From positions 1 through 64,000 of the forward strand of contig NZ_QJJZ01000006.1 in assembly GCF_003201775.1 (NCBI RefSeq): a DNA stretch of 64,000 nt. The letters are read 5' to 3'. Within the stretch, counting starts at the first letter, position 1. Every line of letters starts with the position of its first letter. The notes beneath the pieces were generated by a model. That model was not told where the DNA came from and searched no databases. It saw only the letters and a list, made by a program, of their open reading frames with translations. The position numbers were made by a program, and so were the translations under genes. Below, piece after piece: positions 12,307 through 18,638 of this stretch. Origin of the DNA: Arenibacter sp. ARW7G5Y1. Its GTDB lineage: Bacteria; Bacteroidota; Bacteroidia; Flavobacteriales; Flavobacteriaceae.

Positions 12307-13419
12307 ATGTACGGTAAAATTTTCATTATTGTCCTTCTGTTTCTAAATTTTAATTTTTTATTCGCACAAGATACTATTCCCGCTCCACAAGCCCCGGATT
12401 CCATACAAGTAGATTCTATGCGTATAGATACCATAGTAATACGGACCTTGCAGGACAAAATTAAATACATTCCGCGTGGTGCAGACCTGACAAATCCCGT
12501 TGTCTCCTTTAAGCGCACCAAGCCCCTAGAAGAAAAATACAGACGATTTAGAATTCCTTCGTTTTGGGAAAAGGAGAATAAACTTGGATTTAATTTTAGT
12601 GAAGTAGCCTTTGTAAACTGGAATGCCGGGGGTAACAATTCCATTTCCGGATTGGCCAGCGCCAAATTTGTACGAAATTATAAATTTCGATACGTTCAAC
12701 TCAACAACAATTTGGACATACGATATGGCCTCAATGCCCAAGAAGGTTTTAAATTAAGAAAGTCCGATGATGCATTACGGTTTTCCTCCACCTTTGCATT
12801 TCGAAGGGATACCATAAGCAATTGGTACTATTCCGCTAGTGCCGAATTTAGGACACAGTTCTCCAATGGTTACAAATATCCCAATAGGGATAAACCAATT
12901 TCCCGATTTATGGCTCCTGGCTATGCCCTATTGGGTGCTGGTACTTCCTATATTCCAGAAGGCAAGAAATTCAACCTGCGCTTAGCCCCTCTCACCTTCA
13001 AATCCACCTTTGTGTTAGACCAAACTCTTGCCAACAGTGGTGCTTTTGGGGTACAAAAAGCACTTATAGACACCGATGGCAACATAATAAAAGAGGGCGA
13101 AAACGTATATCTGGAATTTGGTTTTCTGGTCTCCAACTCCTGGGAAACCATGGTTTATGAAAATGTAAAACTAAATCACAGGTTACAATTATACTCGGAC
13201 TACGTGAAAAATTTCGGGAACATAGATGTTGACTGGGAAGTAAATTTGGATTTAGCCGTAAACAAATATGTAAAGGCCTCCATTGGCACCCATGTTTTAT
13301 ATGACCACGATATAATTTTCGACGAGGTTAAAGCCGCGGATGGCACCATTACAACCCCGGGAAAACGCAAGGTACAATTCAAACAATTACTGGGCGTAGG
13401 TTTGATCTATGATTTTTAA
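12307..13419 (+). CDS. DUF3078 outer-membrane-like protein
   Basis: A 370-aa exported protein with a signal peptide (about 1-20, NFNFLFAQ). The core contains FSEVAFVNWNAGGNNSISGLASAKF, typical of DUF3078, and alternating amphipathic strands through to the C-terminal KQLLGVGLIYDF, whose terminal phenylalanine suits an outer-membrane beta-barrel. Function is unknown. The gene sits 1 bp after dxs and converges with dgt, their stop codons overlapping by 4 bp. In flavobacteria this family is commonly found next to dxs, but whether the two are functionally linked is unknown. Confidence 0.88.
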   Translation: MYGKIFIIVLLFLNFNFLFAQDTIPAPQAPDSIQVDSMRIDTIVIRTLQDKIKYIPRGADLTNPVVSFKRTKPLEEKYRRFRIPSFWEKENKLGFNFSEVAFVNWNAGGNNSISGLASAKFVRNYKFRYVQLNNNLDIRYGLNAQEGFKLRKSDDALRFSSTFAFRRDTISNWYYSASAEFRTQFSNGYKYPNRDKPISRFMAPGYALLGAGTSYIPEGKKFNLRLAPLTFKSTFVLDQTLANSGAFGVQKALIDTDGNIIKEGENVYLEFGFLVSNSWETMVYENVKLNHRLQLYSDYVKNFGNIDVDWEVNLDLAVNKYVKASIGTHVLYDHDIIFDEVKAADGTITTPGKRKVQFKQLLGVGLIYDF

Positions 13420-14759
13420 AGCTGTTTTCCCATAATCTTATTATGGATGTGCACCGCAGCACTATCCGATAAGCTGGCAACATAACAGCAGGTACTCAAG
13501 AGTATATCGTAGATGGAACCTTTGGTTTCCCTATAAGGTTCGGGCAAAGTAGAAATCATAAGTCGGTCATAATTGGAACTATTCCCTTCCTTATTCCTGA
13601 TCAATGCCGTTGCATATACATCCAAAATGTCCGAAATTATCCTGTAACCCGCTATTTCCTTTTCCAACACCTCCTGGGACCTATAGATCTTCTGTACACT
13701 TAAGGTAATAATATCCTCTATTTGTGCCTTAAACTTGCTTTTATCCATTAAGGAAACCGAAAATTCCCCGTTTAGGATAGCATCCTCGTTTTCAATAAAA
13801 ATAGTAATGGCATCAGAGATCAAGGTGTTGATAGCAAGAGCCCTTAAATAGCTCAGACGATCTTCCATATATGCCAAATTGTTATACTTTTTTATGTTGA
13901 TACTGTCCTTGACCAACTTAATTAAATACTCCAAGGCATAATCCTCTGAAATAAGGCCTAAATTGATTCCGTCCTCAAAATCGATAATGGTATAACAAAT
14001 ATCATCTGCAGCCTCTACCAAAAAAGTAAGCGGGTGTCTACAAAAACCGACATCCCTGCCCTTTCCCCTCGATTCGAGTCCCAGCTCCGCGGCCACCTCC
14101 TGAAAAGAAGACACATCCTGTTGAAAAAATCCAAATTTCTTGTCCGCTATATGCTTGGTGGGCTTTTTGGGCAAGGATTCCTTTGGGTATTTCATAAAAG
14201 CCCCCAGGGTAGCGTAACTAAGTCGCAATCCCCCTTCAACTCCTTGGCGGGATTCTGTTAATAATCTATATCCATTGGCATTACCTTCAAAATCTATAAT
14301 GTCCTGATACTCTTTTGGTGTCAACACCTTCTCAAACTGTTTGCCCCTGCCCGTTTTAAAGTATTCCCCTATGGCCTTCTCCCCACTATGGCCAAAAGGA
14401 GGGTTCCCAATATCATGTGCCAGGGCTGCAGCGGCAACAATGGCGCCAAAATCGTTAAAGCGATAACCGTGCACTTCACGTAAATGAGGATGTTTTTCCA
14501 GAATTTTCTTCCCGGCGATCCTGCCAAGGCTTCTACCTACTACCGAGACCTCCAAGCTATGGGTAAGACGGGTGTGGACAAAATCGGTTTTGGAAAGAGG
14601 TATTACCTGTGTCTTGTCCTGTAGGCTCCTAAAAGCCGCAGAAAATATCACCCTATCGTAATCCACTTCAAAACCCAACCGAGTTTCATCCTGTTCCTTT
14701 CTAATTCTTTTGTTGGTATCACCAAAACGTTTCAAGGAAAGAAGCTGCTCCCAATTCAT
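13416..14759 (-). CDS. dgt: dGTP triphosphohydrolase
   Basis: A 447-aa HD-superfamily enzyme that hydrolyses dGTP (and related dNTPs) to the nucleoside and triphosphate. The metal-binding HD set is present: His67 in TRLTHSLEV and His115-Asp116 in LAHDIGNPPFGHSGE, with a downstream ADDICYTIIDFEDG aspartate. The N-terminal RKEQDETRLGFEVDYDRVIFSAAFRSLQDKTQV is the Dgt signature. Length is normal for the short bacterial class. It converges with DUF3078, and its own upstream region holds the candidate sRNA described separately. Confidence 0.94.
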   Translation of the reverse strand: MNWEQLLSLKRFGDTNKRIRKEQDETRLGFEVDYDRVIFSAAFRSLQDKTQVIPLSKTDFVHTRLTHSLEVSVVGRSLGRIAGKKILEKHPHLREVHGYRFNDFGAIVAAAALAHDIGNPPFGHSGEKAIGEYFKTGRGKQFEKVLTPKEYQDIIDFEGNANGYRLLTESRQGVEGGLRLSYATLGAFMKYPKESLPKKPTKHIADKKFGFFQQDVSSFQEVAAELGLESRGKGRDVGFCRHPLTFLVEAADDICYTIIDFEDGINLGLISEDYALEYLIKLVKDSINIKKYNNLAYMEDRLSYLRALAINTLISDAITIFIENEDAILNGEFSVSLMDKSKFKAQIEDIITLSVQKIYRSQEVLEKEIAGYRIISDILDVYATALIRNKEGNSSNYDRLMISTLPEPYRETKGSIYDILLSTCCYVASLSDSAAVHIHNKIMGKQL

Positions 14760-14909
14760 AATGTAATTTTAGAGGTCGCAAGATACATTTTTAGGATTTC
14801 AACACATAATAAAACCTAAAAACAGCGCTTACCCAACCAAACCACACACCCAATTTTTAACGATAAATTAAAGTTAAGATTACAATGGGTTTATTAGCAA
14901 TCCCCATCT

Positions 14910-15010
14910 TAGCATTTGTCTTAAGACTATCTTGGTTTCATTGTAACTATTAGTTTTTGTCGACTATTGATGTGAAATCGGAAGCTACCTCTGGCCAAGG
15001 TAGCTTTTTA
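14910..15010 (+). ncRNA. Candidate small RNA upstream of the phosphate porin
   Basis: Between dgt and the porin lies a stretch with no coding potential that ends in a strong intrinsic terminator (14982-15010) and starts near a loose -7-like box (TAGCATTTG, 14910-14918). That would make a transcript of roughly 85 nt. It would carry TATTAGTTTTTGTCGA (14948-14963), exactly complementary to 15071-15086, immediately before the porin ATG. Such an RNA could pair with the porin leader and block initiation. The promoter is weak by consensus, so the call rests on the terminator and the complementarity. Confidence 0.35.
14982..15010 (+). terminator. Intrinsic terminator in the dgt-porin intergenic region
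   Basis: A perfect 9-bp stem (AAGCTACCT / AGGTAGCTT), a 7-nt loop and a TTTTAT tail. It does not follow any protein gene on the plus strand, so it must end a leader or non-coding transcript that starts upstream of it. Confidence 0.75.
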
Positions 15011-15033
15011 TTTAAACTAATATTATTCCTAAG

Positions 15034-15051
15034 TTAACATTAAATTAACAT
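15034..15051 (+). promoter_or_regulatory. Pho-box-like element of the porin promoter
   Basis: TTAACAT-TAAA-TTAACAT: two identical 7-mers at an 11-bp period, the geometry bound by PhoB dimers. It ends 9 bp before a TACTTTG -7-like box (15061-15067), which is where activator boxes replace the -35 element in classical pho promoters. The gene it controls is a phosphate-selective-porin homolog, followed by a Pit transporter. Assignment to PhoB is inference, because no phoBR is in the window. Confidence 0.6.
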
Positions 15052-15090
15052 ATATATTGGTACTTTGTCCTCGACAAAAACTAATACTAT

Positions 15091-16296
15091 ATGAAAATGA
15101 AATGCTTAGCCCTAGGGCTTGCATTGTGCTCACTTTTTATATCCTATTCTCAAGAACCCAATGCCCCCGAATTTGGCAAAGGTCTTTTTAATTTGATGGG
15201 CAAGGACAGTACCTGGAGCTCCAAGATTGCGGCTAGAATGCAATTTTTGAGTAGCACGACTTGGACTGAAAATCCCAACGGAAATTATACAGACCCCGAT
15301 TTTAATGCTTTGATAAGAAGGGCAAGGTTAAAATTTGATGGATTTGTATATTCCCCTAAACTTCGTTACAAACTGGAGTTGGGATTGTCCAACAGGGATA
15401 TTTCCGGTGGTTCCAAATACACTGGTAACGCCCCACGTTATATACTGGACGCCGTAATAATGTGGAATTTCTATCAAAATTTTGAACTTTGGGTAGGCCA
15501 AACCAAACTGCCCGGCAATATGGAGCGGATTATTTCTTCAGGCAATCTTCAAATGGTGGACCGTTCCCTATTAAATGGTCAGTTTACCTTAGACAGGGAT
15601 ATGGGCATTCAACTTAGACACCACTCCCATCTAACGGATACATTTGTGATACGCGAAATAATCGCAATTTCGCAAGGAGAAGGTAGAAATATCACCACTG
15701 GAAATCTAGGTGGCCATCAATACAGCGGACGCGTGGAACTACTTCCATTTGGTGAATTTAAAAGAGGTGGCGAATATAGTGGAGGCGATTTAAAAAGGGA
15801 AAAATCCCCAAAACTGATGGTGGCCGCCACGTACAACCTGAACCTCAATGCGGTTAAGACCAGAGGTAGCCAAGGGACATATATGGTAACCGACTTCGGT
15901 TTTCACCAAACCGATATCAACACCCTATTTCTAGATGCCATGTTTAAGTATAACGGATTCTCCTTTATGGCCGAATACGCATATAGGGATGCCGAAGACC
16001 CCATTGCGAGAAATATGGACGGTTTTCAGACCGGGGAGACAGTGCAGATAGGGCACGGATTAAATCTGCAAACCGGATATCTTTTAAACAGTAATTGGGA
16101 AATTTCCGGAAGATACACCAACATAGAACTGGAGAATAATATTACCATAGAAAACCCTAAAAATCAATACACCCTAGGACTTTCAAAATATATTGTTGGC
16201 CACAAATTGAAGGTGCAAACGGATATTAGCTATCTATCTGTTGGCAGTGGCCCTGATGAATTAATGTACAGACTGCAATTGGATGTACATTTTTAA
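15091..16296 (+). CDS. Phosphate-selective porin O/P family protein
   Basis: A 401-aa outer-membrane beta-barrel of the OprO/OprP family, expected to take up phosphate or polyphosphate. It has a signal peptide (about 1-21, SLFISYSQ), then RIARLKFDGF-type sequence (RRARLKFDGFVYSPKLRYKLELGLSNRD), WVGQTKLPGNMERI, and a barrel ending KVQTDISYLSVGSG...YRLQLDVHF with terminal Phe. The Pho-box-like repeat upstream and the Pit transporter 74 bp downstream both point to phosphate. The leader just before the ATG forms one arm of a 16-bp inverted repeat. Confidence 0.9.
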   Translation: MKMKCLALGLALCSLFISYSQEPNAPEFGKGLFNLMGKDSTWSSKIAARMQFLSSTTWTENPNGNYTDPDFNALIRRARLKFDGFVYSPKLRYKLELGLSNRDISGGSKYTGNAPRYILDAVIMWNFYQNFELWVGQTKLPGNMERIISSGNLQMVDRSLLNGQFTLDRDMGIQLRHHSHLTDTFVIREIIAISQGEGRNITTGNLGGHQYSGRVELLPFGEFKRGGEYSGGDLKREKSPKLMVAATYNLNLNAVKTRGSQGTYMVTDFGFHQTDINTLFLDAMFKYNGFSFMAEYAYRDAEDPIARNMDGFQTGETVQIGHGLNLQTGYLLNSNWEISGRYTNIELENNITIENPKNQYTLGLSKYIVGHKLKVQTDISYLSVGSGPDELMYRLQLDVHF

Positions 16297-16370: not shown

Positions 16371-18638
16371 ATGGACAATTTATATTTATTAATGATCATT
16401 GCCCTTGCCTTCTTGGCAATAGCAGATTTGGTAGTTGGGGTTAGCAATGACGCCGTTAACTTTTTAAATTCCGCAATTGGCTCCAAAGCCATTTCGTTCA
16501 GGACCATTATGATAGTGGCCAGTTTGGGTATAGCCATAGGTGCCATTTTTTCCAGTGGAATGATGGAGGTGGCCCGTAAGGGAATCTTTCACCCAGGTGA
16601 ATTCATGTTCAGCGAAATTATGATAATTTTCATGGCGGTAATGATTACCGATATCCTGTTATTGGATTTTTTCAACACGGTTGGGATGCCCACTTCCACA
16701 ACGGTATCCATCGTCTTTGAACTGTTGGGAGCCTCGGTAGCCATGTCCTTTATAAAAATTGCCTCAAGTGGGGGCGACTATATTGATATTTACAATTATA
16801 TAAACACTTCAAAGGCTACTGAAATTATTTTGGGCATCTTGCTTTCCGTTGTAATTGCCTTTTCCATAGGAGCCATGGTTCAATATCTGTCCCGTATTCT
16901 ACTTTCTTTCGACTTTAGAAAAAAGGCTAAGATAATAGGAGCGCTCTTCGGAGGTATTGCCCTGACAGCAATCACCTATTTCATTCTTATAAAAGGTTTA
17001 AAAGGGGCTACTTTTGTAAGTGATAATGTTCTGGATTATATAAAAAACAATACCGGCACCATTATCATTGGAAGCCTTGTACTTTGGACCCTGGTATCTT
17101 ATATTATTTCGGTAATATTGAAATACGACGTGTATAAACTCATTATTATAGTAGGTACATTTGCCTTGGCACTTGCCTTTGCCGGGAACGACCTTGTTAA
17201 CTTTATTGGAGTCCCCATCGCCGCTTGGCAATCTTTTGAGGCTTGGCAAGCTTCAGGGGTTCCTGCAACCGAATTTAGCATGACAGTGTTGGCCGAAAAA
17301 GTTCCTACCCCCACTATTCTATTGTTCGTAGCAGGAATGGTCATGGTACTTACCTTATGGTTTTCCAAAAAGGCACGTTATGTAACCCAAACCGAAATTA
17401 ACCTATCTAGGGAAGGGGAATCCAAGGAGCGTTTTCAACCCAATTTTTTATCAAGGGGAATAGTTAGATCGGCTATGATGTTGTCTACGGTCACCTCTGC
17501 CCTTTTACCAAAAGCCCTACAGGAAAAAATAGATTCCAATTTTAAAAAGCCCGTTATACCCCTTTCCAAAGATAAAACGTTTGAAATGCCAGCTTTTGAT
17601 ATGGTAAGGGCTTCCGTTAATTTGATGGTTGCCGGGGTGCTGATATCCGTGGCCACCTCGTACAAATTGCCATTATCCACTACCTATGTAACATTTATGG
17701 TAGCAATGGGAACCTCTTTGGCCGATAGGGCTTGGGGAGCTGAAAGTGCCGTTTACCGGGTTGCCGGAGTATTGAATGTCATTGGAGGCTGGTTCTTTAC
17801 GGCCATTATAGCCTTTGTTTCTGCCGCAGTTATAGTTTCACTTATCAATATACATGTACCCTCCATGGTGGCGGTTCTGTTATTGTTGGCAATCCTCTTG
17901 TTGGTAAGAAATTATATTTCACACAACAAAAAATCCAAGGAAATCCGGGCGGAAGACAGTTTAAGAAAGGCTGAAAGCAGCTCTATCCAAGGGGTGATCG
18001 AAGAAAGTGCGGACAATATTTCCAATGTGGCGAAAAGAAGTAACAAAATATACACCCACATCATCGACGGACTTGCCAAACAGGATTTGGAGCTATTGAA
18101 AAAGAACAAAAAAGGTGTTGGTAAACTTTCTGACGAAATAGATGAATTACGAGATCATATATTCTATTTCATCAAGAATCTGGATGAGGCAAGTGTTGGG
18201 GCCAGTAACCTATATATCAACATTTTAGGGTATTTGCAAGATATGGCCCAATCCTTGGAATATCTGAACAAGATAAGCCATAAACACATCCACAATAACC
18301 ATAAAAAATTAAAATACAACCAGATAAAAGAGTTAAAAGAAATAGACCTTGAATTGCAAAAATTACTAAGTGCAACAAAGGCGGCTTTTGAAACTAGATC
18401 TTTTGATCGTATTGGTGAAATTTTTGCCAGTAAACAAGCACTTTTGGATATGGTTTCGCAAAAAATAGAAAAGCAGATTGCTAGGACACGTACCGAAGAA
18501 TCCAGCCCAAAAAATACTACTCTGTATTTTACTTTTCTTCTGGAGACAAAAGATTTTATCAACGCTACCATGAACCTTTTGGAGCTCTATTACAACGAAC
18601 ACGATAGTACGGTAATACCTGCCAAATTGGAAGTGTAA
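16371..18638 (+). CDS. Pit-family inorganic phosphate transporter with PhoU-like C-terminal domain
   Basis: A 755-aa inner-membrane protein. The N-terminal part (about 1-525) has the duplicated PiT core with the signatures GVSNDAVNFLNSAIGSKA near residue 25 and AGNDLVNFIGVPIAAWQS near 265. It also has STTVSIVFELLG and STTYVTFMVAMGTSLADRAWG. The C-terminal ~200 residues are cytosolic and helical (SADNISNVAKRSNKIYTHII onward), and resemble PhoU, which gates or senses phosphate flux. The fusion puts transporter and PhoU-like regulator in one chain, a layout known in Bacteroidota. The preceding porin fits delivery of phosphate across the outer membrane. Confidence 0.93.
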   Translation: MDNLYLLMIIALAFLAIADLVVGVSNDAVNFLNSAIGSKAISFRTIMIVASLGIAIGAIFSSGMMEVARKGIFHPGEFMFSEIMIIFMAVMITDILLLDFFNTVGMPTSTTVSIVFELLGASVAMSFIKIASSGGDYIDIYNYINTSKATEIILGILLSVVIAFSIGAMVQYLSRILLSFDFRKKAKIIGALFGGIALTAITYFILIKGLKGATFVSDNVLDYIKNNTGTIIIGSLVLWTLVSYIISVILKYDVYKLIIIVGTFALALAFAGNDLVNFIGVPIAAWQSFEAWQASGVPATEFSMTVLAEKVPTPTILLFVAGMVMVLTLWFSKKARYVTQTEINLSREGESKERFQPNFLSRGIVRSAMMLSTVTSALLPKALQEKIDSNFKKPVIPLSKDKTFEMPAFDMVRASVNLMVAGVLISVATSYKLPLSTTYVTFMVAMGTSLADRAWGAESAVYRVAGVLNVIGGWFFTAIIAFVSAAVIVSLINIHVPSMVAVLLLLAILLLVRNYISHNKKSKEIRAEDSLRKAESSSIQGVIEESADNISNVAKRSNKIYTHIIDGLAKQDLELLKKNKKGVGKLSDEIDELRDHIFYFIKNLDEASVGASNLYINILGYLQDMAQSLEYLNKISHKHIHNNHKKLKYNQIKELKEIDLELQKLLSATKAAFETRSFDRIGEIFASKQALLDMVSQKIEKQIARTRTEESSPKNTTLYFTFLLETKDFINATMNLLELYYNEHDSTVIPAKLEV

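Follow-up and report, generated by a model that had tools for sequence, protein, structure and literature searches.

A predicted small RNA complementary to the start of a phosphate porin mRNA in Flavobacteriaceae

Genome comparison around a phosphate-uptake operon of Arenibacter sp. ARW7G5Y1 reveals, as in many marine flavobacteria, a predicted, conserved structured RNA with a loop complementary to the start of the leader of an outer-membrane porin. Judging by the sequences of relatives, the two sites have evolved as a base-pairing couple, even at a distance of ~3 kb, and this joint change of the pairing sites in evolution argues that they very probably constitute an undescribed switch for phosphate uptake. 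The best explanation, to which we assign a probability of about 0.8, is that a ~93-nt small RNA (sRNA) gene, equipped with a promoter and a terminator of its own, encodes an RNA that would pair with the start of the porin mRNA and block its translation.

The stretch of DNA analysed (64,000 nt, hereafter the window) holds an exact 16-nt inverted repeat, whose upstream arm (TATTAGTTTTTGTCGA, 14948–14963, plus strand) is the reverse complement of the downstream arm (15071–15086, plus strand), with a gap of 107 nt between both. A gap of 4 nt separates the downstream arm from the ATG of an OprO/OprP-type porin gene (15091–16296, plus strand; PF07396, E = 9.3e-10), which is followed by a PHO4-family phosphate transporter gene (16371–18638, plus strand; PF01384, E = 1.1e-29). 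The other border of the intergenic region is a minus-strand gene with an HD domain (13416–14759; PF01966), which we take to be dGTPase-like; just 5′ of its start lies an imperfect 12-nt inverted repeat (TTTTTAGGATTT / AAAACCTAAAAA, 14788–14822). When the 331-bp intergenic stretch (14760–15090) was shuffled 1000 times by dinucleotides, the longest exact inverted repeat measured 7–13 nt, so that the 16-bp repeat reported in the initial annotation, once recomputed, exceeds anything obtained by shuffling. The terminator-like stem (14981–15009) and the Pho-box-like repeat (15034–15051) that had been placed between the arms are also present. The repeat joins two separate loci, namely the predicted structured RNA and the start of the porin mRNA. 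Exact complementarity and covariation mark the upstream arm as the putative antisense to the 5′ end of the porin mRNA, and complementarity, promoter spacing, and covariation mark the downstream arm as the start of the porin leader and the predicted sRNA target. The 11-mer CGACAAAAACT has four copies in the 5.73-Mb genome, two of them being the arms and two lying elsewhere. The named relatives with 79–88% porin identity all belong to Arenibacter.

The predicted sRNA gene spans ~93 nt (14918–15010, plus strand), in agreement with the 80–100 nt expected beforehand, and corresponds to a covariance-model match at 14906–15011 (E = 1.1e-15, with this very sequence being a member of the training set); the genome has no second strong copy. 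It would begin with a 5′ stem-loop, SL1 (GUCUUAAGAC, 14918–14927, plus strand), which is weak alone, is missing from some folds, and has as counterparts in other genera different palindromes with other loop lengths. At the level of the DNA, GTCTTAAGAC at these same positions is a perfect palindrome at the predicted RNA start, and may be a protein site. A long hairpin, SL2 (14934–14979, plus strand), is predicted to present the antisense core in its apical loop, and its 5′ strand also holds UUUCAU (14936–14941), complementary to AUGAAA. The 5′ strand of each SL2 pairs better with its own 3′ strand than with those of other species, z being −8.8 for n = 80 (−2.2 in the reversed control) and −5.4 for the 28 strict representatives. 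The RNA would finish in an intrinsic terminator (14981–15010, plus strand), where each of the eight stem pairs shows at least one double change that keeps pairing among 68 sequences; a simple terminator scanner did not list this terminator, and an inverted-repeat search did show its stem. These 68 non-redundant, aligned RNAs were picked by the exact core, because of which the invariance of the core among them is no finding. RNAalifold recovers from them the apical stem around the core and the terminator, with kept double changes in 9 of 13 pairs. Single-sequence folds mostly yield the long hairpin with the core in its loop and the terminator, frequently preceded by a small hairpin at the 5′ end, and the fold of the window RNA is unremarkable alone (−21.8 kcal/mol, z = −1.9).

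Both the porin and the sRNA have candidate promoters of their own. The sigma-A box of Flavobacterium psychrophilum, TAnnTTTG, lies at −12 to −5 according to the main text of PMC9723704. In the window, the −7 box of the porin promoter, indicated near 15061 by the initial annotation, would be GTACTTTG (15060–15067, plus strand), and in 76 of 80 relatives TTTG ends 4–5 nt 5′ of the leader motif GACAAAA. Taken together, this spacing and the position of the F. psychrophilum box would place the start of the porin mRNA at or beside CGAC, which is exactly the target; if the box works as in F. psychrophilum, the downstream arm would form the initial ~15 nt of this mRNA. For the sRNA, CATCTTAG (14905–14912, plus strand), a weak match to TAnnTTTG, is the probable −7 box. 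The motif GTCTTNAGAC is carried by 30 of the 80 relatives, 28 of which have an A..TTnG box ending 4–5 nt upstream of it, a spacing that would put the 5′ hairpin at the very start of the sRNA.

Regarding phosphate control, a Pho-box-like direct repeat (TTAACATTAAATTAACAT, 15034–15051, plus strand) lies in the porin promoter between the arms, with the consensus GGAAACATTnAnTTAACATT in 78 relatives; it is absent or degenerate at two loci (L010 and L011), where both arms are kept. Upstream of the sRNA, an AT-rich array with three half-sites spaced 11 nt (TTAACG-ataaa-TTAAAG-ttaag-ATTACA, 14857–14884, plus strand) is a possible OmpR/PhoB-type site. Self-similarity at a lag of 11 nt in this region averages 0.388 in 80 relatives vs 0.313 when shuffled, with 0.434 for the porin promoter. 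TTHAYA spaced 11 nt is the consensus of PhoP-type sites in Bacillus, and the triple pattern occurs 5′ of the sRNA in a fraction of 0.40 of the 80 relatives, compared to 0 in the reverse complement, 0.01 in shuffled, and 0.25 in reversed sequences; the window's own copy has four mismatches to it. A position weight matrix of the porin sites scores low 5′ of the sRNA, without strand preference (5.3 forward, 5.0 on the reverse strand, −0.9 shuffled, and 17.8 for the porin sites themselves). Since both promoters hold 11-nt tandem repeats, both may answer to a PhoB-like regulator, and PhoB control of the sRNA, proposed by analogy, is plausible.

The covariance model (R1), run on 299 Flavobacteriaceae genomes with the training sequences included, detects the RNA in 123 of them at E ≤ 3.2e-7. 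A looser tally of 181/299 at E ≤ 0.01 is inflated, because 12 of 16 inspected loci with weak matches (E ~1e-5 to 7e-4) lack the core, several of them being terminators of other genes, and the RNA is present at only four (L350, L351, L353, and L358); the count of 123 was thus retained. An order-wide sample of 246 genomes gave eight matches at E ≤ 1e-4, which comprise the window's own, six from the same family, and one from outside; the matches in G259 (same family) and G513 (outside the family) lack the core, which was likewise not found in four weak matches in G547, G554, and G555. So far, in this one order-wide sample, the RNA appears restricted to Flavobacteriaceae. A genus with many species (g147), which may be Flavobacterium, has no model match in the 14 entries listed for it. 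Rfam 15 at its gathering cut-offs yields no match in the window and none in four relatives, for which relaxed scores gave no convincing match either.

The association with the porin was followed from both sides. The porin was found in 39 of 60 genomes searched (own included), and the best 30 of these loci plus 80 named loci gave a set of 110, of which 96 hold the core GTTTTTGTC (14953–14961 in the upstream arm of the window, plus strand) 5′ of the porin, with some genomes in both sets; within the genus, 18 of 18 genomes do so. The core is missing at 14 loci (L027, L030, L041, L043, L048, L049, L052, L064, L068, L072, L073, L076, L077, and L080), and the covariance model was applied to the genomes of 12 of them, leaving out L027 and L030. 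At three Lutibacter loci (L072, L073, and L080) the RNA lies ~3.4 kb 5′ of the porin, and in the genome of L077 it lies at a contig end. Four metagenome-assembled genomes (L041, L043, L048, and L064) have the leader motif or a near variant of it and no sRNA match, and L049, L052, L068, and L076 have neither the leader motif nor a model match; the weak matches obtained in two of these eight remaining genomes lack the core.

Starting from the RNA, 119 oriented loci of the family search were compared, 117 of which hold the exact core (L169 and L327 being the exceptions). The phosphate porin adjoins the RNA at 105 of the 119, with the exact GACAAAA leader followed by the porin at 101 and a slightly altered leader at four (L117, L286, L287, and L307); the 101 include a PF07396 paralog at L124 and, by Pfam scan, at L132. 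The leader also precedes another PF07396 paralog at L353 (outside the 119), and a 335-aa outer-membrane-like protein, which at L332 has no Pfam match, comes directly after the leader, and is followed by a PF12849 periplasmic binding protein, and which at L301 has its gene start ~230 nt further on. The proteins encoded after the leader comprise PF07396 orthologs, PF07396 paralogs, and an outer-membrane-like protein of 335–341 aa with no Pfam match. An adjacent porin was not found at 12 of the 119 loci, which include L301, L332, and L153. Among the others of these 12, L159 and L164 are unlinked RNA/porin pairs and L156 has the RNA at a contig end, and nothing was recognised next to the RNA at L315 and L334. 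At L129 (G161), L152 (G031), L281 (G147), and, by position, L336, the RNA lies 5′ of pho4 with no porin beside it; G031, G147, G161, and probably G201 keep the sRNA with no adjacent porin ortholog, and the PF07396 genes found in G031 and G161 are leaderless. Retention of the RNA at L152, L129, and L281 would reflect either a recent loss of the porin or further targets. One genome (G181) has a second copy of RNA and leader before a short porin-like start (L153), besides a copy with the full porin (L154). Arm spacing differs from species to species. A minus-strand gene of ~118–142 aa and similar sequence (ELKLN...YYHDNG.VSQTG) lies just 5′ of the RNA in several genera (L124, L129, L132, L152, L153, L159, and L164).

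Two kinds of comparison address the coordinated change of the two sites. Cognate sRNA–leader duplexes average −28.4 kcal/mol vs −24.9 over all combinations, and in this swap test the double-centred residual of −3.5 corresponds to z = −11.1 (n = 80), or −7.0 with the core removed, although these z-scores, like the others given here, overstate independence because the sequences are related. The controls of the same size gave −0.2 and −0.2 (reversed sequence), 0.1 (promoter region), −1.1 (RNA 3′ region), and −3.6 (porin coding sequence). With 31 rough genus representatives, z was −7.2 (−4.2 with the core removed) and the controls ranged from −0.2 to −1.5, the porin coding sequence giving −0.2 and the RNA 3′ region −1.5. 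Since this rough set includes two Maribacter and two or three Flagellimonas/Muricauda entries, the test was rerun with 28 stricter representatives, in which z was −5.8 (−3.3 with the core removed; reversed control −0.3).

A second approach counted paired changes column by column in 155 distinct pairs, where RNAs and leaders were chosen by the core and only the flanking positions are unbiased. In columns −5 to +9, 94.6% of the cells are paired vs 38–59% in slid registers, and 65 paired cells are changed on both sides vs 20.4 (sd 3.6) in shuffled pairings, none of 500 of which reaches 65, and vs 12–44 in slid registers. Over all 18 columns the 111 doubly changed cells exceed the 58 of shuffled pairings, but this count alone does not discriminate from slid registers (33–98), since there is hardly any pairing in the outer columns. 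As to how many pairs show a double change, 9 of 500 shuffles attained the observed number over all columns and 6 of 500 did so in columns −5 to +9. In L169 and L350, which belong to the same genus, and in L327, both sides of the core itself carry changes (GUUUUAGUC with GACUAAAA), and GUUUUAGUC with GACUAAAAC is a natural compensatory variant of it. Among the 80 pairs, the poorest residual (+4.0) is that of the window despite its perfect 16-mer, its leader suiting the RNAs of other species at least as well as its own RNA; this result, together with the slid-register control, slightly weakens the covariation argument. Once opening costs are included, the net pairing energy averages −13.2 kcal/mol and is below −5 in all 80. 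At two loci of the Allomuricauda/Flagellimonas group (L066 and L079), the predicted pairing passes the start codon into the first codons (for L066, GCCAAAAA with RNA UUUUUGGC), so that a longer antisense stretch is possible in this group. The initial annotation had named in advance, as grounds against it, repeat arms that were not conserved or did not co-vary in relatives; the arms are conserved across Flavobacteriaceae, and covariation was found.

A pairing that is real could nevertheless aid the mRNA, by shielding its 5′ end from decay, or the leader could act as a sponge that keeps the sRNA from other targets. This appears unlikely, if still worth consideration, given that the predicted pairing involves the extreme 5′ end of the mRNA and that retention of the sRNA in some genomes with no adjacent porin ortholog hints at further targets. 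In two Arenibacter genomes, TTTG-N-GACAAAAA sites slightly outnumber those of a backwards control (75 vs 65 in G000 and 95 vs 62 in G016), an excess that possibly reflects such targets, but these sites are rarer than the control in G031 (37 vs 112) and G161 (46 vs 124). Against this alternative, the predicted pairing spans nearly the whole leader and often nears the start codon, and pairing over a leader towards the start codon is usually inhibitory. Moreover, among 18 genomes of the genus, the porin is the only place where CGACAAAAAC-N-ATGA is widely shared, apart from the sRNA arm, where it reads on the opposite strand; two other such strings recur in two genomes each, and none in more. The GACAAAAACTA places numbered 34 among the matches listed for six relatives, plus two further ones in the window's genome, and the 22 read in context fall mostly within genes or have no start nearby. 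One leader-like site in G031, before a protein that we presume to be CotH-like from its look, was judged to be due to chance.

The arms could also belong to one long read-through transcript, in which they would fold as a long-range hairpin hiding the porin start, as in a leader attenuator. Their position on the same strand, 107 nt apart and with a terminator between them, would suit this arrangement. However, in five genomes (G118, G141, and three Lutibacter genomes, L375–L377, of three species) the RNA and the porin lie ~3 kb apart with two opposite-strand genes between them, which at L376 encode a sulfate permease (PF00916) and a carbonic anhydrase (PF00484), and complementarity is kept; in these genomes, the RNA could act only as an independent molecule. 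The varying arm spacing and the conserved porin promoter point the same way, and this explanation, very improbable on these grounds, is rejected because of the opposite-strand genes. A cis-acting leader attenuator or riboswitch was set aside likewise, as the layout is not that of one transcript and the porin has a separate promoter. The proposal of an sRNA or a leader attenuator made in the initial annotation is hence strongly supported in its first part, by covariation, and not in its second, and the term "locally acting" needs softening in view of these five genomes. Finally, a perfect inverted repeat around a promoter might represent a duplicated operator or the termini of a small mobile element, a DNA-level reading that is left with hardly any probability and was rejected on RNA-type covariation, as the changes include G-U wobbles and bulged extensions, SL2 and the terminator co-vary as RNA, and the genome holds only one strong copy.

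Under the preferred explanation, that of an sRNA blocking porin translation, first contact would take place between the sRNA loop UUUUUGUC and GACAAAAA at the 5′ end of the mRNA. Pairing would then extend along the hairpin's 5′ strand, through CUAAUA and in many species on towards the start codon, and this strand invasion would block translation initiation of the porin in the phosphate-uptake operon. By analogy, repression is the most likely direction of the effect. Less certainly, if both promoters answer to a PhoB-like regulator, the sRNA would be a brake on its own regulon. A broader proposal, advanced tentatively and at somewhat less than even odds, is that the sRNA and the ~15-nt leader form a portable module, in which the leader tags the first nucleotides of any outer-membrane pore used for phosphate uptake and the sRNA reads this tag, and that, with PhoB-type repeats at both promoters, they would make up an incoherent feed-forward loop capping porin synthesis during phosphate starvation.

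Porin-repressing sRNAs of the MicF and MicC type offer one point of comparison. Like these (PMC5745476) and VrrA (PMC2628432), the flavobacterial RNA is predicted to be short, to end in a terminator, and to match a porin mRNA by complementarity around the start of translation. Unlike MicF and MicC, it is usually encoded just 5′ of its target and on the same strand, holds its antisense core in a hairpin loop, pairs with a target that would begin at +1 of the mRNA, is tied to phosphate uptake, and has been seen so far in Flavobacteriaceae alone, as judged from the one order-wide sample. On this comparison, it would work like MicF but represents a new family. The predicted spread of pairing from a hairpin loop into the stem resembles CopA/CopT. 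Antisense RNAs of the CopA/CopT type derive from the strand opposite to their target, whereas the complementarity described here joins two separate loci. Rfp18 and other Rfp RNAs of F. psychrophilum are also structured, conserved, and thought to pair with mRNAs, with the difference that Rfp18 is tied to metalloproteases, as stated in the main text of PMC9723704; the word "porin" is absent from that main text, on which the comparison with the Rfp RNAs is based. No description of the RNA was found in the literature, with subscription papers and supplements outside reach, and to that extent the earlier statement that no example had been described in flavobacteria stands.

To our knowledge, few sRNA–target pairs are established in Bacteroidota. 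Translation in this phylum starts without Shine-Dalgarno signals, according to the main text of PMC9723704. The predicted pair adds an sRNA whose target is named by covariation, which is spread through Flavobacteriaceae and placed on phosphate acquisition, and would provide a ready test case for translation control by sRNAs in Bacteroidota and for the need of a chaperone in this process.
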